From positions 1 to 64,000 of the forward strand of contig JAEUWD010000056.1 in assembly GCA_016786485.1 (NCBI GenBank): 64,000 nucleotides of DNA, read 5' to 3'. Of the stretch, positions 11,487-44,225 are shown in pieces (positions within the stretch are counted from its first letter, which is position 1; every line of letters begins with the position of its first letter). This stretch comes from Bacteriovoracaceae bacterium. GTDB lineage: Bacteria > Bdellovibrionota > Bacteriovoracia > Bacteriovoracales > Bacteriovoracaceae. The translations under genes were made by a program, and so were the position numbers. The notes below the pieces were generated by a model that did no database searches, was not told the DNA's origin, and worked only from the letters and a program-made list of their open reading frames with translations.

Positions 11487-12596
11487 ATGAAAATAGCTGT
11501 TCCAAAGGAAATCAAAAATAACGAAAATCGTGTTGGTCTTGTCCCGGCCGGAGTGGTCCAGTTAGTGAAAGATGGTCACCAAGTTTTTATTGAAACAAAA
11601 GCTGGTTCAGGTATTGGTTTAACCGACGAAGATTATATTAAAGCAGGAGCGAAAATTGTAAAATCGCTCGAAGAGGCTTATCAAGTTGGTGAAATGATCA
11701 TCAAAGTTAAAGAACCTCAGGACAATGAATTAAAACTGTTACGCAAAGATCATATTCTTTATACTTATCTTCACTTAGCTGCAGATAAAGAACTTACGGT
11801 TAAATTACTTGAATCTGGTTGTACTGGAATCGCTTATGAAACGATTCAGGAAGATGACGGTTCACTCCCTCTACTTGTGCCTATGTCAGAAGTAGCTGGT
11901 CGTATGGCAACTCAAGTTGGTGCCACTTATTTGCAAAAAGATAAAGGTGGTAAAGGCATTCTTCTTGGAGGTGTTCCGGGAGTTCGTCGCGGTCGAGTAA
12001 CTGTCATTGGTTCTGGGATCGCAGGTACTAACGCGATTAAAATGGCGATGGGGATGGGAGCTGACGTAACAGCTATCGATCTTTCAGCGACTCGTTTGGC
12101 ACAACTTGATGATCTTTTCGAAAACAGAATTACAACTCTCTATTCAAACCCAGTTAATATCGCAGAAGCAGTTCTACGTTCTGATTTAGTTATCGGTGCC
12201 GTTTTAGTTGCTGGTGCGAAGGCACCAAAGCTCGTGACTCGTGATTTAATTTCACGCATGGAAAAAGGTTCAGTAGTTGTTGATATAGCAGTTGATCAAG
12301 GTGGATGTATTGAAACTTGTAAACCAACCACTCACGAAAAACCGACTTTTGAAGTAGATGGTATCATTCATTACTGTGTAGCGAATATGCCAGGGGCCGT
12401 TGCTCAAACTTCAACTTATGCACTTACTAACGTAACCTTAAAATATGCTCGTTTGATCGCTAACCTTGGCCTTGAAAAAGCTATCGCAAGTGATCATCGC
12501 TTGGCCAAAGGTGTGAACACCTATAAAGGCAAACTAGTATATGAGCAAATTGCTAAGGATCATAATTTAGCTTATAGCCCTTTGAATATTATTTAA
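11487..12596 (+). CDS. ald: alanine dehydrogenase
   Basis: The 369-aa protein matches alanine dehydrogenase end to end: [18 protein letters not shown] at the N-terminus, the substrate-site lysine in KVKEPQ, the [11 protein letters not shown] segment and the NAD-binding [18 protein letters not shown] fold. It interconverts L-alanine with pyruvate and ammonium using NAD(H). Length equals the family norm (~370 aa). GAGGTGAAGT precedes the ATG. It stands alone on the plus strand; with the peptidoglycan and peptide-degrading genes nearby it may serve growth on amino acids, which is inference. Confidence 0.96.
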
Positions 12597-12604
12597 GCCC
12601 CTGA

Positions 12605-12610
12605 TACAAT
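12605..12610 (+). promoter_or_regulatory. extended -10 element, leaderless start at 12618
   Basis: TGATACAAT gives an extended -10 (TG at 12602-12603, one spacer base, TACAAT), 7 nt before the ATG of the FliL-like gene, which lacks a Shine-Dalgarno sequence. Confidence 0.55.
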
Positions 12611-12617
12611 ATCAACT

Positions 12618-13088
12618 ATGACTGGAAATGTATTAGTTGATAAAATCCTGGTTGCCGTTTTTGCCTTCATTAGCTTGGCTTGTTTTGGCTTAAGTTATTA
12701 CACTTACAATATGATTAAGACCGCCCCTATTAGTCCAAAGGCTGAGTACGGTGCGATGGTGGAAAATGCCAAAGTGGCTGGCCAAGTGGAAACAGTGGCA
12801 CTCAAGAGTATGGTGATTAATCTTTACTCTCGTTCAACGCGTTTACGTTTTCTAGATATTCAAATCAACGTCTTACCATTCAATGGCTCACAAGCTGAAT
12901 TGATTCTACAAAAAGAATCTATTATTGCTGATACCGTCATCACTATCGCAGGCGATATGGAACCGGATGAACTTAATTCTGTTTCGGGAAAAATTATTTT
13001 AGAAGATCGAATTAAAAAACAAGTTAACTCCATGGTCGGCGAACCGCTCATGAAGAAAATCTATTTTTCGAAATTTGTTATTCAATAA
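12618..13088 (+). CDS. orphan FliL-like membrane protein
   Basis: The 156-aa protein has one transmembrane helix (~10-30) followed by a domain with the FliL pattern: VINLYSRSTRLRFLDIQI, a D at IIADTVI, the VSGKIILEDRIKKQVN helix and the ending KKIYFSKFVIQ. FliL sits at the flagellar basal body around the stator. Here it has no flagellar neighbours, so it may serve a stator-like or other envelope motor, or simply be a dispersed flagellar gene. The mRNA looks leaderless. One nucleotide separates its end from the convergent 58-aa gene. Confidence 0.72.
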   Translation: MTGNVLVDKILVAVFAFISLACFGLSYYTYNMIKTAPISPKAEYGAMVENAKVAGQVETVALKSMVINLYSRSTRLRFLDIQINVLPFNGSQAELILQKESIIADTVITIAGDMEPDELNSVSGKIILEDRIKKQVNSMVGEPLMKKIYFSKFVIQ

Positions 13089-13089
13089 A

Positions 13090-13266
13090 TTATTGTTCGT
13101 CTTGTAAACGAGCTGACGGATCGACTACTTTGTAGTTACCAGTTTCGTCTTTAAGGTCTTTAAAAAATTTATTTAGCTCAGTTTGAGTCACTTTGCCTTC
13201 AGCTACTAAACGGTCTCTTAGTCTAAGGTCTAATTTTTTCTCATCAAGTGCCATTTTCAATTTCAT
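13090..13266 (-). CDS. 58-aa charged protein of unknown function
   Basis: A short frame on the minus strand encodes 58 residues starting MKLKMALDEKKLDLRLRDR and ending SARLQDEQ. A good ribosome binding site (AAGGAT, 8 nt before ATG) and the tight fit between the FliL-like gene (1-nt gap) and the rhomboid gene support it. It is rich in K, D, E and L, with probable helix-turn-helix-like packing around VAEGKVTQTELNKFF, but I assign no function. Coding is likely, because no other reading explains the interval. Confidence 0.6.
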   Translation of the reverse strand: MKLKMALDEKKLDLRLRDRLVAEGKVTQTELNKFFKDLKDETGNYKVVDPSARLQDEQ

Positions 13267-13341
13267 CTGGATATCCTTATTTAAGTCAAAGTTTGTTCAT
13301 TCTTAACACAGAAAATCATATTCTTGCAACTGAGGAGAGCA

Positions 13342-14067
13342 TTAATGCCAGTATTTAGAGCCATTATCCTTCTTGGCGTCATCCACCAAGCTCAACTTGC
13401 CTTTGGCCCGATGACGTCTTAAGCCACTAAAAAGACTTAAAAAGCTTCCACCCTGAGACTTATGAGACTGCCATTTGAGATAAGTCACCCCACTTACAAT
13501 CGCCGCCAAGTGGGCCCAAGACGATTTATTATAAGGTGAGAAAATCCCCATATAGAGCTCAATTCCCACCAAAAGCCAGCAGAAGTACTTGGCCTTCATG
13601 GGAAATAAAAGCATAAAAGTCATCATTCTTTCGCTAAAAATCATACCGTAAGCGATGAGCAGTCCATAACAAAGACCGCTTAGGCCAACCAAAGGAAAAG
13701 CAAAGAGCGATGAATCCCGAAAAAAAGCAGCTGTCATCGCGAGATAAAAAAGTCCTGAACCAAAAACCGACCAAAACAAGAACCAACTATAGGTCTTTCG
13801 CCCCCAGCGGGCCTCAAGATCGCAGCCGATAAACCATACGACCAAACCGTTAAATAATAATTCCATCAAACCACGCCCTACTAACGGATAGGTCAAGAGT
13901 TGATAGACATGTCCTTGTAAAACAGCAGCGGTTGAAAGTCCTAAATAGGCATTAAGCGAAAATCCTAAAAGCACAGTAATAGAATTGATCAAAAAAATAG
14001 CACCGCAAGTAATTAAAAGTGTGCGATTGATATTCGTTAATCTTGGAACGTTAATAGACGGATTCAT
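13342..14067 (-). CDS. rhomboid-family intramembrane serine protease
   Basis: The 241-aa protein has about six transmembrane helices. The catalytic serine lies in GLSG (S130) and the catalytic histidine in SWAHLAA (H186), both in the expected membrane helices; the GCDLEARWGR segment at ~81-90 corresponds to the conserved loop/Glu-Arg region after TM2. The tail after ~200 is basic and cytoplasmic. It should cleave membrane proteins within the bilayer. It is preceded by 2 nt by the epimerase gene and probably co-transcribed with it. Confidence 0.88.
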   Translation of the reverse strand: MNPSINVPRLTNINRTLLITCGAIFLINSITVLLGFSLNAYLGLSTAAVLQGHVYQLLTYPLVGRGLMELLFNGLVVWFIGCDLEARWGRKTYSWFLFWSVFGSGLFYLAMTAAFFRDSSLFAFPLVGLSGLCYGLLIAYGMIFSERMMTFMLLFPMKAKYFCWLLVGIELYMGIFSPYNKSSWAHLAAIVSGVTYLKWQSHKSQGGSFLSLFSGLRRHRAKGKLSLVDDAKKDNGSKYWH

Positions 14068-14069
14068 CT

Positions 14070-14477
14070 TTATACCTTCTGCGATAATTCAATAAGAATA
14101 CCACCCGTTGAACTCGGATGAATAAAATTTACCAAACAGTGATCGGCTCCCGGCACTGGTTTTTCGTAAATAAAACGATAACCTTTGGCCGCGAGCTCTT
14201 TTTGTTTTGCCTTCACATCTTCTACACGAAAACAAAGATGGTGAATGCCCTCACCTTTTTTCTGAATAAATTTCGCCACCGTACTTTCAGGTGAAGTGGG
14301 CTCCAATAATTCAATTCGTGATTTTTTATCGATCTGACAAAATTGCGTTTTTACTTTTTGACTGGGTACTTCTTCAATATGCTCAGAAAAACTAAAGCCG
14401 ATGTCTTCGTAAACTTTACGGGCCTGAGCTAAGCTTTGCACGGCAATAGCAATATGATCGAGATGTAATCCTTCCAT
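14070..14477 (-). CDS. mce: methylmalonyl-CoA epimerase
   Basis: This is a compact vicinal-oxygen-chelate (glyoxalase fold) protein of ~135 aa. It has the family landmarks LDHIAIAVQSLAQA near the N-terminus, IELLEPT, GEGIHHLCFRVED and the C-terminal GGILIELSQK; metal ligands H, H and E are in place. It interconverts (R)- and (S)-methylmalonyl-CoA in propionate/odd-chain catabolism. The frame is open upstream to 14588, but the ATG at 14477 (MEGLHLDHIA) fits the family and lies 19 nt after the stop of the preceding lipoprotein gene. No mutase gene is in the window. Confidence 0.9.
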   Translation of the reverse strand: MEGLHLDHIAIAVQSLAQARKVYEDIGFSFSEHIEEVPSQKVKTQFCQIDKKSRIELLEPTSPESTVAKFIQKKGEGIHHLCFRVEDVKAKQKELAAKGYRFIYEKPVPGADHCLVNFIHPSSTGGILIELSQKV

Positions 14478-14496
14478 GAGACTTATTATGCCCGGA

Positions 14497-16311
14497 CTAG
14501 TAAGGAGGGTCAATCGCCTGAGCGCAAGCATTCGGATCAGTCGGGTTAAAGACAGGAACACTCGGTGAAGTTGGAGGAACACAAACACCGTTTACACAAT
14601 CTCCGAACTTGGAAACGTTATAACAACGAACTTCACAAGTGACGGCGCCTAAAACGGTAAAACCTGTTTTTACGATGTAACACTCGCTCACCGTTTGCTC
14701 CATACACCATTCTTTTGCAATACAGATTTGACCAAATGGTTTTGAACACAGAACCGGTGGCTCAAGTGAGTTATTGTGAACCGCACATCGGCTAGTTGAA
14801 GTTGAACAACATAGTGAAGAACAATCAAAATCAGTCGCACAAATTTCGCCTAACAAGCCTCCACCTGTCCCTGAAACGGTTTCAGGACAAAGTGACACGA
14901 CACCTTTTGACCAACAACGATTGTTGTAACAACACTCATCAGATGAACAAGCTGATGAAGAACTACACTGTCTGAGCGCTGAGAAAAGGACATCTGAGCC
15001 GCTGGTATTTAACTGACTACTTTTTGTTAATTGTAATTTAACGTCTTTACCGCCGTCATCTGAGTCAGCGATCAGTTTCATTTCTCCTGTAGAAGCCACT
15101 TTTTCATAGATTTCAATCGTGGCACTGACGTTACACGAACCGTAGTGTTCGTTAAGTACTGGATCAAGTGTTTGTACGCGAGTATTACATCCATCCATCC
15201 AACCTGTCGCCCCACTCGCAGCTGATGCTACAATACTTTTTGCCGCCTGAGCATCCGTCGACGAAGTGGCAACATGCTCAACTCCGGCCGTCAGATTTAA
15301 TTTAGTATAACGAGGAAATAAATAAGATGAATAACCGTAATTAGCATCGGCACCTGAAAGAGATCCTTCAAATAGGCCATATTTAGAATACATAGCACTT
15401 CCACTTATTTGCCATAAGCCAGTATTCAGAGAACGGTACGGACCATCGTAACGATAAGTCGTTCCCCCGATCACATTCGTTGAACCAATGGCATTGAACA
15501 GGTAGTTGGCCGCATTGCTATCATAAATAACTTGTGTCCCTTTTTCTGATAAACATTTTTTTAGTGAATTGGCAGTTGTATCGCGAGTGTAACCAAGACT
15601 CCCAATTTCGATCATCGGTTGGCTTGGAACGATTGGTAAATAAACCCCACTAGTATTTTTCATCAACCCCTTATCTAAAATCTTTGCATATGAGTAGCGA
15701 CATTCACTGGTAGCACCACTGCAAGACCCAGAACCCTGGAAACTTGGATCATCAGCTAAATACAAGCCACGACAGAAAAGATTGGTATTTAAATTATTTT
15801 GAACCGGCTCATCGCCAGCTGTAAAATCATAATCATTGTAATCGTATAAATCATACAACAAACGAATATCATCAAAGCGTAAGCCGTTTTCACCAGCTTG
15901 GCTTAAATCTAAAATTAAAACATCGATTTCAGTTGAAGGTGTAATCCCTTGTCCACGGCCAAGTGTAGCTTCGTAAGTAATTTCTTCTTGTGCCATCCCA
16001 AATTTAAATTTCACGAAAAGATGTTTGTCGCGCAAAGTTTGGAAATTCAGACCTGATAAATAAAGTTCACCACGATAATTTTTTGGGATAGTTAATTTGC
16101 GAGTATAAGTTCCGTCATACGGGTTAACCAAGTGTCGCATTTCAACTTTTGCCACAGGCGTTCCTGACCCGCCACCAATCCCACCATTACCTGGATTGGA
16201 GCAATCTCCACCGTTACAACTTGAATTATCATTTGAACTTGGATCACGCGTCGGTACCGGTGCGATACAGGCGCTAAAAAGGACCAAAAATAGAAACGCA
16301 AATTTCATCAA
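14497..16311 (-). CDS. large Cys-rich lipoprotein of unknown function
   Basis: The 604-aa protein starts with a lipoprotein signal (LVLFSACIAP, lipid Cys ~15), then a short Asn/Gly/Ser linker. Residues ~50-440 form a Tyr-rich beta domain, and the last ~160 residues hold clustered cysteines (CSSDECCYNNRC, DFDCSSLCCSTSTSRC). The paired CxxxxCC pattern recalls disulfide-knot modules of secreted binding proteins. Surface display is likely; adhesion or prey/host contact is only a guess. Two ATG codons are in tandem at the start. No homologue is recognised. Confidence 0.75.
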   Translation of the reverse strand: MMKFAFLFLVLFSACIAPVPTRDPSSNDNSSCNGGDCSNPGNGGIGGGSGTPVAKVEMRHLVNPYDGTYTRKLTIPKNYRGELYLSGLNFQTLRDKHLFVKFKFGMAQEEITYEATLGRGQGITPSTEIDVLILDLSQAGENGLRFDDIRLLYDLYDYNDYDFTAGDEPVQNNLNTNLFCRGLYLADDPSFQGSGSCSGATSECRYSYAKILDKGLMKNTSGVYLPIVPSQPMIEIGSLGYTRDTTANSLKKCLSEKGTQVIYDSNAANYLFNAIGSTNVIGGTTYRYDGPYRSLNTGLWQISGSAMYSKYGLFEGSLSGADANYGYSSYLFPRYTKLNLTAGVEHVATSSTDAQAAKSIVASAASGATGWMDGCNTRVQTLDPVLNEHYGSCNVSATIEIYEKVASTGEMKLIADSDDGGKDVKLQLTKSSQLNTSGSDVLFSALRQCSSSSACSSDECCYNNRCWSKGVVSLCPETVSGTGGGLLGEICATDFDCSSLCCSTSTSRCAVHNNSLEPPVLCSKPFGQICIAKEWCMEQTVSECYIVKTGFTVLGAVTCEVRCYNVSKFGDCVNGVCVPPTSPSVPVFNPTDPNACAQAIDPPY

Positions 16312-39203: not shown

Positions 39204-39638
39204 TTAACTTCTAGCAAAGTTAAGCGTCTTACCAAGCGATTTCGATTTTTTATGATGAATGCTGTGTAATTCTTCTTTCTCTGATTCTTCTTTGCAACCA
39301 ATACACATCTCACTTGTAGGACGCGCTCTTAGTCTTTCAAAAGAAATTCCACAACCACATTCTTCGCAAATTCCATATTCATCATTTTCAAATTTTGTTA
39401 GGGCCTTAATAATTTTTTTAAGATAAATCGCTTCGCGATTTGTGAAACGCATATCCGTGGTAATCAAGATAGCATCATTAGCAGCATCGACATCATCTTT
39501 AATTTCGACTCTTGATTCCAAATATTCACGTTTCTTTTCTTTGAAATTTTCTTTAATTCTTTCTGAATCAGTAAGAAGCTTATCCTTCAGAATACTAATT
39601 TGGCTCTTCGTTAAGCCTGTGGTTGTTTTTGAACCCAT
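39204..39638 (-). CDS. DksA/TraR-type C4 zinc-finger protein, second copy
   Basis: The 144-aa protein has a helical N-terminal region and the zinc finger CEEC-x17-CIGC with ERLRARPTSEMCIGCKEE, closely parallel to the protein at 19076. The start is set at 39638 (MGSKTTTG) by GAGG 8 nt upstream; the frame continues to 39707. Unlike its paralogue it has no structured GGA leader. It probably acts on RNA polymerase. It lies between nqrE and the M48 gene on the same strand. Confidence 0.85.
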   Translation of the reverse strand: MGSKTTTGLTKSQISILKDKLLTDSERIKENFKEKKREYLESRVEIKDDVDAANDAILITTDMRFTNREAIYLKKIIKALTKFENDEYGICEECGCGISFERLRARPTSEMCIGCKEESEKEELHSIHHKKSKSLGKTLNFARS

Positions 39639-39801
39639 ACTCCATACCTCTTTCTCTGATAAATGTTTGTACTGAATAGTGTAATGAAACTGGAAAATGG
39701 ATGACAATCAAAAAAAGATCGAATGAAAGAAGATGTTAGAAGCTTAACACGTTCCTAACATTCAAAAAATACTACCGTGCTGAATCTGGAATTTTATTTT
39801 T

Positions 39802-40410
39802 TTAAATTTTCAGAGAGGAAAAACTCAAAAAGACCATCGCTAATATTCCGATCGTCATGAAAAAAATTCCTAAACCGTTAAGTGATTCGGGAATGTCAGA
39901 ATACTCCATACGGTTACGAAGTCCTGCAATAACCATAATCATAAATAAAAAACCTAATCCACTGCCAACTCCAAAAATAGTTGACTCAAGTACCAAATAA
40001 TTATTCTGCTCAGCTAAAAGTGCAGCACACAAAATGGCGCTGTTTAAAATTGCCAAAGGATAAAAATTTTCCACCGTGCTCAAATCCATAAAATCAAGCT
40101 TAGTTAAAACAAGCTCAATCAATTTCATTACTGCTGCAATTGTACCGAAATAAAGAAAATATTTAAGGATTGAGAGATCCAAACCATGATATCCGACCCA
40201 TGCTAACGCATCTGGCTTGATCACATAGTGATAAAGAACTGAGTTAATTATAGTGGATAAAGTCACAGAAAGAAAAATAACCAAGCCAAACCAAAAGGCC
40301 ATGCGAATTCTCTCAGAGAATTTAAAAACGGAATATAAACCAAGGCCTAAGGCGACAATGACATTTTGATTAAATAAAGCTTTGTAAAAAATGGCTAAAT
40401 AATGTTCCAT
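39802..40410 (-). CDS. NqrE-like subunit lacking cluster cysteines
   Basis: The 202-aa protein has six membrane helices and matches NqrE from MEHYLAIFYKALFNQN through VIKPDALAW, GFGSGLGFLF-like wording (FGVGSGLGFLFMIMVIAGLR) and YSDIPESLNGLGI. In NqrE, Cys26 and Cys120 bind the intramembrane [2Fe-2S] cluster. Here the aligned residues are Tyr26 and Ser124 (LNSAILC). The adjacent Cys128 is out of register. It is last in the nqrA-B-D-E run, 3 nt after nqrD. Confidence 0.88.
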   Translation of the reverse strand: MEHYLAIFYKALFNQNVIVALGLGLYSVFKFSERIRMAFWFGLVIFLSVTLSTIINSVLYHYVIKPDALAWVGYHGLDLSILKYFLYFGTIAAVMKLIELVLTKLDFMDLSTVENFYPLAILNSAILCAALLAEQNNYLVLESTIFGVGSGLGFLFMIMVIAGLRNRMEYSDIPESLNGLGIFFMTIGILAMVFLSFSSLKI

Positions 40411-40413
40411 ACT

Positions 40414-40998
40414 TTATTCCTTGGTCAAAACTGTATTTTTATAATGTTGAATAACCCAAATCACCGAACCGATTAGAAGAAAACCGCATGATGGGAGGAG
40501 AAAGAAATTATTTGTTTTCGACATCTCCCAAAGTTGATTGCCAAAAATAGTACCATCGTAAAAGAATTCACGAATCAATGAAATAAGAATCAAAATAACT
40601 GAATACGAAAGAGCATTTAAAAAACCAATCCCTAAACTTAACCAAGGCCGATTCACTCTAGCAAAGCTAAAAGCATTTCCGACAATGAGAGTATTAAGGG
40701 CGGTAATGCCCACCATCCACTTTAATCCATTGTGAATTTCAGGGTAGTACATAGTTAAAAGGTAATCGATTAGAGTCATTAAACTTAAAGTAAATACTAG
40801 AACTAAAATGAGAAATGTTTGTAGTTTTACTTTTTCACGAACGAGACTCATAAAAAAGTTGCAGAGAGATGAAGTCGCGATCACGATGAGACAAAGAGGT
40901 AAAATCGCTTCAACACTGGTCGCAAAGAAAATGGCCGAACAAACAGCAAACACCTGATAAACTAAAAGTTCATTTAATATAATTTGAAATGTTTTCAT
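40414..40998 (-). CDS. NqrD-like subunit with one cluster cysteine lost
   Basis: The 194-aa protein has six membrane helices and NqrD wording (QVFAVCSAIFFATSVEAI, SNFF-type NFFMSLVRE, ILILISLIREFF...GTIFG). NqrD contributes two Cys to the shared [2Fe-2S] cluster. The first (C20 in AVCSAI) is kept; the second, in TNCIVMG of ordinary NqrD, is Thr103 (LNTLIVG). It overlaps nqrB by ATGA, leaving no room for nqrC, which lies between nqrB and nqrD in canonical operons. Confidence 0.88.
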   Translation of the reverse strand: MKTFQIILNELLVYQVFAVCSAIFFATSVEAILPLCLIVIATSSLCNFFMSLVREKVKLQTFLILVLVFTLSLMTLIDYLLTMYYPEIHNGLKWMVGITALNTLIVGNAFSFARVNRPWLSLGIGFLNALSYSVILILISLIREFFYDGTIFGNQLWEMSKTNNFFLLPSCGFLLIGSVIWVIQHYKNTVLTKE

Positions 40999-42095
40999 AA
41001 ATTACTCAGCTCTCTCTTTTGTCGACGATAAATATTACTCTTCACAACTAAATGATCAATTAATGGGGCCATAGCATTCATCACCAAAATCGCTAACATC
41101 CAAAATGCTGTTGATTCGGGATTCATCACTCGGAAGATAACACCTAGTATTCCAATGAAGAAACCATAATAGTACTTACCCATTTCTGTCGTAGTGGCAC
41201 TAATCGGATCAGTGGCGAGGAAAACACAGGCAAAAGCAAAACCACCTGTCATTAAATGCCATTCAGGCGTTAAACCAAAAAGTGGATTGATTCCTGCACC
41301 AATCATATTAAAAACGGAAGATGAAAAAAACATACCAATCAGCATCGAGAACATAATTTTCCAGGAAGCTAGACCTGAAATCAGCAATACTACCGCACCT
41401 ACCAAACAAGCAAAAAATGAGGTTGTGCCTAATTGGCCAGGGATGGTTCCCCAGAAAGCTTGCTCAAGCGTAAAGTTCAAATTATTGGCATCAAAAGTAT
41501 TAATAGCTTGAGGATAAGCATAATATAAAAAGGCCATGCCTACTAAAGCCGGATTAAAAAGATTACGGCCAGTGCCTCCATAAATTTCTTTTCCAATCAC
41601 AATCGCAAATGAAATACCGAGTGCCACTTGCCAAAGGGAAATAGAAGCTGGCATTAATAATGAAAAAATTAAGCCTGTCACGAAAAGACCTTCACTAATT
41701 TTTTTTCTTCTCATGATGGCAAAAAATAATTCCCACGCTCCCCCTACCAACATGCTGGTAAGATAAACAGGTACAAAAAAAAGTAGGCCATAAATAAAAC
41801 TCGACCAAAAAGAAGTTTGACCTAAAGAAAATCCTAATAAATCAAAAAGAGCTGAGCGCCAAGTTTCAACACCCTCTAAGGTATGATTGATGTGAGCTTG
41901 ATAACCAGTGTTATAACAGGCCATAATAACAACCGGGACTAAGGACAATTCGACAATAAACATGACTCGTCTTAAATCAAGACAATCACGAATATGAGTA
42001 TCCGATTTAGTTTCGTCATTTCGACAAAAAATTAACTCATTGATGGTATTAGAAATATAATTTTTATTTTGCTCATAAAATTTTAAGAGAAACAT
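40995..42095 (-). CDS. NqrB-like subunit without the FMN-threonine segment
   Basis: The 366-aa protein keeps NqrB features: WELFFAIMRRKKISEGLFVTG, LWQVALGISFAIVIGKE, GGTGRNLFNPALVG, GGFAFACVFLATDPISA. In canonical NqrB (~410 aa) about 60 residues, including the SGAT threonine that binds FMN covalently, lie between FFAYP and the IGNIPG motif. Here YYAYP (191-195) and GTIPG (216-220) are only 20 residues apart and no SGAT exists. The start overlaps the nqrA stop by one base and the end overlaps nqrD by ATGA. Confidence 0.88.
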   Translation of the reverse strand: MFLLKFYEQNKNYISNTINELIFCRNDETKSDTHIRDCLDLRRVMFIVELSLVPVVIMACYNTGYQAHINHTLEGVETWRSALFDLLGFSLGQTSFWSSFIYGLLFFVPVYLTSMLVGGAWELFFAIMRRKKISEGLFVTGLIFSLLMPASISLWQVALGISFAIVIGKEIYGGTGRNLFNPALVGMAFLYYAYPQAINTFDANNLNFTLEQAFWGTIPGQLGTTSFFACLVGAVVLLISGLASWKIMFSMLIGMFFSSSVFNMIGAGINPLFGLTPEWHLMTGGFAFACVFLATDPISATTTEMGKYYYGFFIGILGVIFRVMNPESTAFWMLAILVMNAMAPLIDHLVVKSNIYRRQKRELSNL

Positions 42096-43441
42096 TATTC
42101 AGCACCTTTTTCAATTTGGTTAAGAACTGACCTTAATAGAACGCCATAATCATTTTTGCTTGGGTCAACGAATGTACAAAGCGCCAAGTCTTCTTCATCT
42201 AATTCAAGGCAACCCAGTTTTTTTGCTTCTTCGAGTTTATTGCCAACCAAAGATTTAAAAAGAAACGTTGGCTGAATATCCATGGGTAGAATTTTTTCGA
42301 AAATTCCCAAAGGATAAATCGGTCTTTCACTACCAGCAGAATTAGTGGTGAAAGGAAACCTTCGACCAAAAAAAATTTTTGATAGATAAACATTTTTATA
42401 TGAATACTTATCAATACCGAACCCATACCATCCTAAAAAGTCGTTAGAACTTTCTTCTTTGATAACTGAGACTTGATTATGGTAGCGGCCTAAATAGCAA
42501 TAAGGTGTAGTACTCGCAAATTTTCCATTAAGAATCGAACCTGAAATAATGCGACTTCGTCCTAGAGATAATTCTCCATAAGTCAGTTCCAAAAGATTAA
42601 CTCCACGTTGAGTATTTAAAAGTCTTGGAACTTTCACTTGTGGTCCAGCCAAAGAAATAACTCGAGGTAAATAAAGTGTGCCGGTTAAAAAGAGCCCACC
42701 AATGGCAATCACATCTTGATAACCAATGTGCCACACTGCGCTTTTTAAACTTACTGGTAATAAATGATGAATATGTGTCCCAACATTTCCGGCCGGGTGA
42801 GGTCCTTTGATTTTTTTCTGAATGATATTTTTTTCAGTAAACTGCCACTTCTGTTTTTCAGTCACGCATACAAAAATTTGGCACTCTAAAAATTTTGCCA
42901 GAACGTTAACGCCAGCTTGGAAATACTCTTTTCTTTCATTCAATACAATTTCAGGATTTGCTGCTAGCGGATTCGTATCAGTTGCCGTCACAAAAAGAGC
43001 TGAAGGTCGGCTATTTATCTTTGGAACCTTAGAAAAAGGTCGAGTTCGAAAAGACGTCCACTCACCTGATTCAATAAGTAGCTGCTGAATCTCGGCCGGT
43101 TTTAAATCATTGATCGGTTTACTTTTAAAAGAAGTAAATTGAATATTCTTTTCACCTTCAGAATCAATAACGATCGATTCTAATCGGTGATGAGTATCCA
43201 TTTTTATTTCTGCTACTTTTCCGCTGGCCGGAGATGTAAATATGATTCCAGGATTGGTCTTATCTTCAAAGAGAGCTTGTCCAATTTTAACTTCTTCGCC
43301 TACTCTCACCTTAAAATGAGGTTCAAGATCGAGATAATCACGACCTAGTAGCGCCACTTGTTTAATCGGTTTAGCTTTTTCAATCAGTTGTTTAGGTAAA
43401 CCTTGAATAGGGATATCTAAGCCTTTCTTTATTTTAATCAT
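42095..43441 (-). CDS. nqrA: NqrA-like subunit
   Basis: The 448-aa soluble protein matches NqrA from MIKIKKGLDIPIQGLP through VALLGRDYLDLEP, KIGQALFEDKTNPGIIFTSPASGKV and the C-terminal CTFVDPSKNDYG. NqrA has no redox cofactor and caps NqrB on the cytoplasmic face. It is first in a four-gene run A-B-D-E. Its ATG overlaps the upstream divergent frame at 43440, so the promoter region between them is very short. Confidence 0.92.
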   Translation of the reverse strand: MIKIKKGLDIPIQGLPKQLIEKAKPIKQVALLGRDYLDLEPHFKVRVGEEVKIGQALFEDKTNPGIIFTSPASGKVAEIKMDTHHRLESIVIDSEGEKNIQFTSFKSKPINDLKPAEIQQLLIESGEWTSFRTRPFSKVPKINSRPSALFVTATDTNPLAANPEIVLNERKEYFQAGVNVLAKFLECQIFVCVTEKQKWQFTEKNIIQKKIKGPHPAGNVGTHIHHLLPVSLKSAVWHIGYQDVIAIGGLFLTGTLYLPRVISLAGPQVKVPRLLNTQRGVNLLELTYGELSLGRSRIISGSILNGKFASTTPYCYLGRYHNQVSVIKEESSNDFLGWYGFGIDKYSYKNVYLSKIFFGRRFPFTTNSAGSERPIYPLGIFEKILPMDIQPTFLFKSLVGNKLEEAKKLGCLELDEEDLALCTFVDPSKNDYGVLLRSVLNQIEKGAE

Positions 43442-43462
43442 GAAACAAAACCTTTTTTCGAG

Positions 43463-43468
43463 TACAAT
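43463..43468 (+). promoter_or_regulatory. -10 element, leaderless start at 43476
   Basis: TACAAT lies 7 nt before ATG 43476; ATGAAA at 43440-43445 is a -35-like hexamer 17 nt upstream. This argues against using the in-frame ATG at 43440. Confidence 0.55.
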
Positions 43469-43475
43469 ATTCTTT

Positions 43476-44225
43476 ATGATAGCAGAAGATAAGGGCAGCG
43501 AAAAATTATTTGATGGGCATTATCGATACTTGAAAGATGGGAATGAGTATTCGCAAGAAATCTTTTCGGTTACCAAGAATCTTGACGCAAAAACTATTAT
43601 ATATTCTTCCGAAATTCTATCCCGTGTTTCAACCGGCGAGTTTTTGAAAATCAAATGCCACTATGAAGTCAATTCCTCATGGAATCCGACCAAGGTTAAT
43701 GTAATAAAAAGCTTGGGTAATGAATTTGCAGATGAACTTTACGAATATGATACTTCCAGCCAGATTTTGAAATACACTTTTCTCTCGGATGGACCGGCCC
43801 ACCAGGTGGAACGGGCCATTGGTGGAAAGTTTCACATTTCCACGCCTGCTGTTCTAACCTCACTTCTATTCACTATGCAAAAACGCTACAACTCTGTGAG
43901 TCGAAATCAATATTATACTGTCGTAAGTGTGAATGATTGGATTTATGAAGGTGCACCTGAAGACCGATTTATTTATTTGGAATACAAAACTGGTGAAAAA
44001 GAAGAACTCAAAATCAATGGCCAATCACTTTCATCAACTAAGTGTATGCTTTACGAACACGATTCCATTCATAACGTGAAAGAGAACCCTGTGATTTATT
44101 ACCAGAGTAAGCATATCGGAATTCCCTACAAGGCCGATTTAGGTGAAGGAATCGAAGTTGTCATTTCCAATCTCAAAGAATGGCAAACTGAAACTTACGA
44201 ATTTAAGGATGTTTTTAAATCTTAA
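43476..44225 (+). CDS. 249-aa protein of unknown function
   Basis: The soluble protein is rich in beta strands and aromatic residues, with LFDGHYRYLKDGNEYSQEIF near the start and YYQSKHIGIPYKADLGEG near the end. No signal peptide, membrane helix or named domain is seen. The start at 43476 (MIAEDKGS) is chosen over 43440 because a -10 box lies 7 nt before it. The frame is divergent from nqrA and ends with a shared TTAA stop opposite dinG. Confidence 0.65.
   Translation: MIAEDKGSEKLFDGHYRYLKDGNEYSQEIFSVTKNLDAKTIIYSSEILSRVSTGEFLKIKCHYEVNSSWNPTKVNVIKSLGNEFADELYEYDTSSQILKYTFLSDGPAHQVERAIGGKFHISTPAVLTSLLFTMQKRYNSVSRNQYYTVVSVNDWIYEGAPEDRFIYLEYKTGEKEELKINGQSLSSTKCMLYEHDSIHNVKENPVIYYQSKHIGIPYKADLGEGIEVVISNLKEWQTETYEFKDVFKS

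Follow-up and report, generated by a model that had tools for sequence, protein, structure and literature searches.

The Na+-translocating NADH:quinone oxidoreductase (Na+-NQR) and the homologous RNF complex couple electron flow to Na+ movement, and recent structural papers disagree on where the ion passes. It has been proposed to pass through NqrB, along a path that includes D52, E157, F338 and F342 (PMC10643135), whereas work on RNF places the route in the NqrD/E-type pair (PMC11889175). In the structure from Vibrio cholerae, a positively charged patch of NqrA docks NqrF (PMC9325719). The partial NQR/RNF-like systems described so far are NqrB/RnfD-NqrF fusions that lie in flavinylation clusters and keep one electron path (PMC8238504). 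Here we analyzed a locus of a different kind, carried by a 64,000-nucleotide stretch of a Bacteriovoracaceae draft genome (positions 1 to 64,000 of contig JAEUWD010000056.1, hereafter the window), which encodes homologs of NqrA, NqrB, NqrD and NqrE only. Our preferred reading, with a probability of roughly 0.4, is that it represents a Na+-NQR without its electron wiring, kept in its inherited locus as a four-subunit complex with a different job, possibly as a gated cation pathway or a sensor.

The four genes and their missing partners

The open reading frame list contains four intact frames on the minus strand, and Pfam and PDB sequence searches identified all of them: an nqrA-like gene (42095-43441, 448 amino acids, also matched in NCBIfam), an nqrB-like gene (40995-42095, 366 amino acids, NCBIfam TIGR01937 and PF03116), an nqrD-like gene (40414-40998, 194 amino acids, PF02508), and an nqrE-like gene (39802-40410, 202 amino acids, PF02508). 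The curated NCBIfam cut-offs are passed by NqrA, with two models, and by NqrB, with TIGR01937. NqrD and NqrE fall under their equivalog cut-offs (98 bits against 235 and 163 against 247.55, respectively) and score above the Pfam cut-off only, a first hint that these two are unusual. The stop codon of nqrB overlaps the start codon of nqrD in an ATGA (40995-40998, minus strand), at the place where relatives carry an nqrC of ~260 codons. Only 94 bp (39708-39801) separate nqrE from a dksA/traR-type gene (39204-39707, minus strand); in a family member with a complete locus, L083, the equivalent interval (12411-15610) holds nqrF, apbE, and a 2-oxoglutarate (2OG)-Fe(II) oxygenase gene. The frames and profile matches thus agree with the initial annotation, made from the sequence alone, on the position of the four genes, the B/D overlap, and the absence of nqrC and nqrF from the locus.

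No such partners were found elsewhere in the genome. The genome (2.98 Mb, 67 contigs, 98.0% complete, 1% contamination) contains a single PF03116 protein and two PF02508 proteins, namely the NqrB, NqrD, and NqrE of this locus. Within this 98%-complete assembly, we found no FMN_bind protein and no ApbE, nor any NqrF, the sole TIGR01941 match being a stand-alone ferredoxin-like protein of 173 residues. The genome-wide search that the initial annotation had proposed, for nqrC, nqrF, apbE, or a second nqr set, therefore yielded neither complementing subunits nor a covalent-flavin machinery. Two defining elements of Na+-NQR, an NqrC with covalent flavin mononucleotide (FMN) and an NqrF with flavin adenine dinucleotide, a 2Fe-2S cluster, and NADH oxidation, are absent from this 98%-complete genome.

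Residue losses and retained sites

The losses extend into the remaining subunits. In NqrB, the loop that carries the FMN-binding threonine is deleted: at 41478-41501 (minus strand), residues 199-206 read NTFDANNL where relatives read S-G-x-x-V-W-x-A-V-D-G-x-T-G-A-T and beyond. The threonine equivalent to T236 is invariant in the 20 family relatives examined (20/20). The initial annotation had correctly seen that this segment is missing but overestimated its size at about 40 residues: around T236, the alignment gap against V. cholerae is ~28 residues, and against the nearest family member it is 21. In addition, the NqrB N-terminus is 12 residues shorter than in that family member. With the loop deleted and ApbE absent, NqrB lacks what defines its canonical counterpart, a covalent FMN on a threonine.

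Mapped on V. cholerae, only one of the four [2Fe-2S] cysteines of NqrD and NqrE is left. Cys29 of NqrD is kept as C20 (40939-40941, minus strand, as are the codons that follow), its Cys112 is replaced by T103 (40690-40692), and Cys26 and Cys120 of NqrE are replaced by Y26 (40333-40335) and S124 (40039-40041), which are the three substitutions first read from the sequence. The equivalents of C26, C112, and C120 are again invariant in all 20 relatives. In addition, K33 of NqrE is changed to Glu, while E95 is kept as E99, and D133 of NqrD is changed to Ile.

NqrA is the best-kept subunit, with 72 of the 82 positions that are identical in all 20 relatives, and its quinone-labelled peptide FRTRPFSK (131-138) is unchanged. 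Its docking patch reads E40, K61, T62, H84, and H85 where the family has R/K, K, K, K/R, and R, and R81-G82 is changed to M-D. In the alignment with relatives, the family motif R-G-x-K/R-R at residues 81-85 is thus M-D-T-H-H (43187-43201, minus strand), and R/K40 is Glu (43322-43324, minus strand). By homology, NqrA has lost the patch on which NqrF docks while K61 and the quinone peptide persist, and the losses appear to track the missing partners. As the initial annotation had argued, gene losses and residue losses coincide in the same locus.

Its description of a complex with its redox centers stripped out was nevertheless too strong. It holds for the FMN loop and three of the four cluster cysteines, but the riboflavin contacts of NqrB are all unchanged (7/7 by V. 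cholerae mapping: T162, G198, N200, N203, A205, F342, and D346), and one flavin site, that of riboflavin, probably remains. The quinone site of NqrB, in its N-terminus and helix III, is partly kept, with G140, G141, and E144 present and N156, F159, and the N-terminal stretch altered. On the proposed Na+ path, the cytoplasmic and gate residues D52, E157, F338, and F342 are unchanged. E274, A377, P379, and G381 are lost; judging from the published pathway and a cross-link at P376, these residues would lie near the NqrC side. The AlphaFold model of NqrB (mean predicted local distance difference test score, pLDDT, 77) has a template modelling (TM) score of 0.81-0.85, by query length, to solved NqrB structures, and that of NqrD (pLDDT 67) a TM-score of ~0.77 to solved NqrD. 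The NqrB model also has a weak fold similarity to urea transporters.

Read against the known pathway, each known step of the wiring ahead of riboflavin is gone. The canonical route from NADH to quinone would be unable to operate, and the complex would therefore not be an NADH-driven pump. The retained riboflavin pocket is compatible with more than one reading. Another cytosolic donor, perhaps docked on NqrA, might pass electrons directly to the riboflavin of NqrB, and quinone would then receive them without any involvement of NqrF, the cluster, NqrC, or FMN. Such a re-wired oxidoreductase would explain the intact riboflavin contacts, the intact G140, G141, and E144 of the quinone site, and the strong conservation of NqrA despite the absence of NqrF; we consider it a serious rival but unlikely, as no donor gene was found beside the locus and NqrA has no known redox cofactor. 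That the complex would instead transport riboflavin, an idea suggested by the kept flavin pocket and by the distant relation of the NqrB fold to urea channels, is very improbable, since the genome encodes lumazine synthase and auxotrophy is not indicated.

Origin, selection, and proposed role

We searched 129 family genomes with NqrB and 369 phylum genomes with NqrE; an order-level search had the same outcome as the family search. NqrB matches were found in 77 of the 129 family genomes, where full-length frames other than that of the window are ~400 amino acids long (389-401 in nine inspected loci). All 20 family loci taken for comparison contain A, B, D, and E, with an nqrC-sized gap between B and D. 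None of the other family genomes in the set of 129 contains a locus of this form by the NqrB search, and none of the 369 phylum genomes encodes a similar NqrE, the best other matches having ~40% identity. Nothing similar to the window was seen in either set. Relatives that keep the SGAT motif and the cluster cysteines had been named at the outset as an observation that would speak against the finding. All 20 keep them; taken with the shared locus described next, this speaks for a derived loss in the lineage of the window and not against the finding.

L083 carries the complete order nqrA-B-C-D-E-F-apbE-2OG oxygenase and shares both flanks with the window, an unnamed gene and a dinG-type helicase gene on one side and a dksA-type gene and an M48 peptidase gene on the other. 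Because these flanks agree, the window corresponds to an inherited locus minus nqrC between B and D and minus nqrF, apbE, and the oxygenase gene between E and dksA. The losses would have happened in the lineage of the window, a view that follows from one fully syntenic relative and from every other relative examined being canonical. We also considered a horizontal origin, which is opposed by the flanking genes in common with L083. In an NqrA tree, the window groups with L083 and L088 with weak support.

Of the anchors of this synteny, the dksA-type gene is 71% identical to its counterpart in L083 (15611-16036). Upstream, a divergent gene (43440-44225, plus strand) encodes a product of an unnamed family without Pfam match, and in 12 of the 20 loci from relatives a homolog lies close to nqrA. 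Comparison with L083 places the probable true start of this gene at Met13 (43476). The 2OG-Fe(II) oxygenase gene of L083 (14885-15457), located between apbE and dksA, is absent from this place in the window. No excess of promoter or terminator signals over shuffled sequence was found.

The four proteins did not change at the same pace. Of the positions identical in all 20 relatives, NqrB keeps 74 of 112 (of the 38 lost, 12 are deletions that appear as gaps), NqrD 28 of 75, and NqrE 40 of 94. Rates, measured as distances to eight outgroup loci in the window relative to L083, are 1.32 for NqrA, 2.26 for NqrB, 4.98 for NqrD, and 5.95 for NqrE, with 1.03 for the neighboring DinG-type protein. When nqrD and nqrE of L083 were evolved neutrally to the observed identity (200 runs each), the mean number of stop codons was 6.6 and 5.7, respectively, and never less than 1, and the observed hydrophobicity was reached in 0/200 runs for NqrD and 2/200 for NqrE; in a milder simulation, matched to the invariant positions that were lost, 4/200 (D) and 3/200 (E) runs stayed free of stops. 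These simulations, with simple mutation models and no indels, speak to selection on NqrD and NqrE as membrane proteins and not to their role. Selection kept both as open, hydrophobic membrane proteins, and together with the intact frames this favors selection on the remaining parts, in line with the original suggestion that the membrane subunits are retained.

Could a redundant NQR simply be caught in slow decay, with frames still unbroken? Complex I is present, NQR is absent from many relatives, and NqrD and NqrE are the most changed subunits, all of which would fit. This explanation is nonetheless doubtful, given four intact frames, the near normal rate of NqrA, substitutions that follow partner interfaces, and neutral simulations that, at the observed divergence, always produce stops and mostly lose membrane segments. 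The pattern points to repurposing rather than decay. An assembly error or chimaera is scarcely credible: the example is single and the draft has 67 contigs, but a misjoin would hardly give several distinct gene losses at clean junctions, a loop deletion that stays in frame, and correlated substitutions in four proteins, nor the absence of FMN_bind and ApbE across a 98%-complete genome.

Two clusters of the genome contain NuoH-type genes, with subunits assigned by Pfam domains. The first, which reaches almost to a contig edge, comprises nuoA-B-C-D-E-F-G-H-I-J-K and includes the NADH-oxidizing NuoE-F-G; the second comprises nuoA-H-J-K-L-M-N only, nuoK being assigned by size and place. Among family genomes at least 90% complete (G001-G150 set), at least two NuoH were found in 24 of the 25 without NQR and in 7 of the 50 with NQR, the other 43 having none or one. 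The related genomes compared are not independent, and the link between NuoH count and NQR absence is suggestive. In its NuoH count, the genome of the window resembles the NQR-less group. From these counts and the two clusters, NADH oxidation probably does not depend on the NqrABDE complex, as complex I could cover it. The second cluster (L106:507-8136; G000:C22, ~79000-86640) is a membrane arm without nuoB/C/D/E/F/G/I beside it, followed downstream by unnamed genes and then by a pair of a NuoL-like 446-amino-acid protein and a 1063-amino-acid protein, a layout that we take to recall DabB/DabA.

We propose that the cluster-free, FMN-free NqrABDE complex may be a regulated channel or transporter for cations, or else a sensor, and that riboflavin kept by NqrB could serve as a gating or structural ligand; like the general reading given above, this is tentative. 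The scheme starts from what is missing: the nqrC, nqrF, and apbE genes, the FMN loop, three of the four cluster ligands, and the NqrA docking patch. NqrA would hold NqrB in place, with NqrD and NqrE, free of their cluster, on its flanks. NqrB could act as a gated cation pathway whose opening is set by the Phe gate and by riboflavin or quinone occupancy, and the resulting complex would be a regulated Na+ conduit or sensor. As another serious rival, the complex might transport nothing and serve as a sensor or as a platform for assembly, with quinone, riboflavin, or a further membrane protein bound to it. This would suit the good preservation of NqrA and the loss in NqrD of the equivalents of residues proposed for Na+ binding in RNF; the conservation of the Na+-path residues D52, E157, F338, and F342 of NqrB speaks against it, and we consider it rather unlikely.

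Several points weigh against the proposed conduit. Passage of Na+ through NqrB is itself disputed (PMC11889175, on RNF), and the acidic periplasmic exit residue of the NqrB path, a Glu, is lost. R71 and E119 of NqrD, counterparts of the RnfE R67-E115 ion pair by a correspondence that we infer from the offset to the common cluster cysteines, are both Phe. The seven kept riboflavin contacts are not significant against a baseline of 74 of 100 alignable invariant NqrB positions, and folding alone may be the reason why NqrB kept these contacts, its Na+ sites, and its gate. The structure models were built from shallow alignments of canonical relatives, which favor the canonical fold, and are weak evidence by themselves. 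Finally, the form is represented by one genome.

From a biological perspective, a wiring-free form with the NqrB ion path under selection would be a natural separation-of-function variant. Should the purified NqrABDE complex prove to conduct or bind Na+, its ion path could be studied apart from redox chemistry. The locus would also be a case of a respiratory pump converted to another use once its electron partners are lost.

Comparison with known systems

No A-B-D-E form of NQR is described in the open-licence literature that we searched, in agreement with the initial annotation, which knew of no such complex; the nearest are the NqrB-NqrF fusion systems (PMC8238504). Unlike these flavinylation systems, the NqrB of the window consists of PF03116 alone, and all flavinylation parts are gone. 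The Na+-translocating methyltransferase Mtr is a Na+ pump that is not driven by electron transfer, and the NqrD model matches an Mtr chain (MtrC) weakly and not significantly (TM 0.40, E 0.18). However, the methyltransferase context is absent at the window, and this likeness is a lead only.

With RNF (RnfABCDGE), the locus shares the homology of NqrB, NqrD, and NqrE to RnfD, RnfE, and RnfA. It differs in that the NCBIfam RNF models score far under their cut-offs and that a second PF03116/PF02508 set and an RnfG-like FMN_bind protein are absent genome-wide. Elsewhere, six family genomes (G011, G017, G022, G036, G102, and G150) encode, beside NqrB, another PF03116 protein, as long as RnfD (331-337 amino acids), and most of them also a second NqrE/RnfA-type protein, so that RNF and NQR may coexist there. 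Weak PF03116 matches also occur in frames of ~930-975 amino acids (G004:C11, G016:C111, G033:C111, G008:C65, G007:C2, and G034:C78), split into two halves in several genomes; these are possibly a duplicated or fused NqrB/RnfD-like family.

The closest system is the Na+-NQR of V. cholerae (PDB 7xk3 and 8a1t), with which the window shares homologous A, B, D, and E genes in canonical order, the riboflavin contacts, the Phe gate, and the cytoplasmic acidic residues of NqrB, and, in the models, the folds of NqrB and NqrD. It differs in that NqrC, NqrF, and ApbE are missing, as are the FMN loop and the NqrF-docking patch on NqrA, and in that three of the four [2Fe-2S] ligands are replaced. By these comparisons, NqrABDE is an NQR homolog that lacks the redox features by which NQR is defined.

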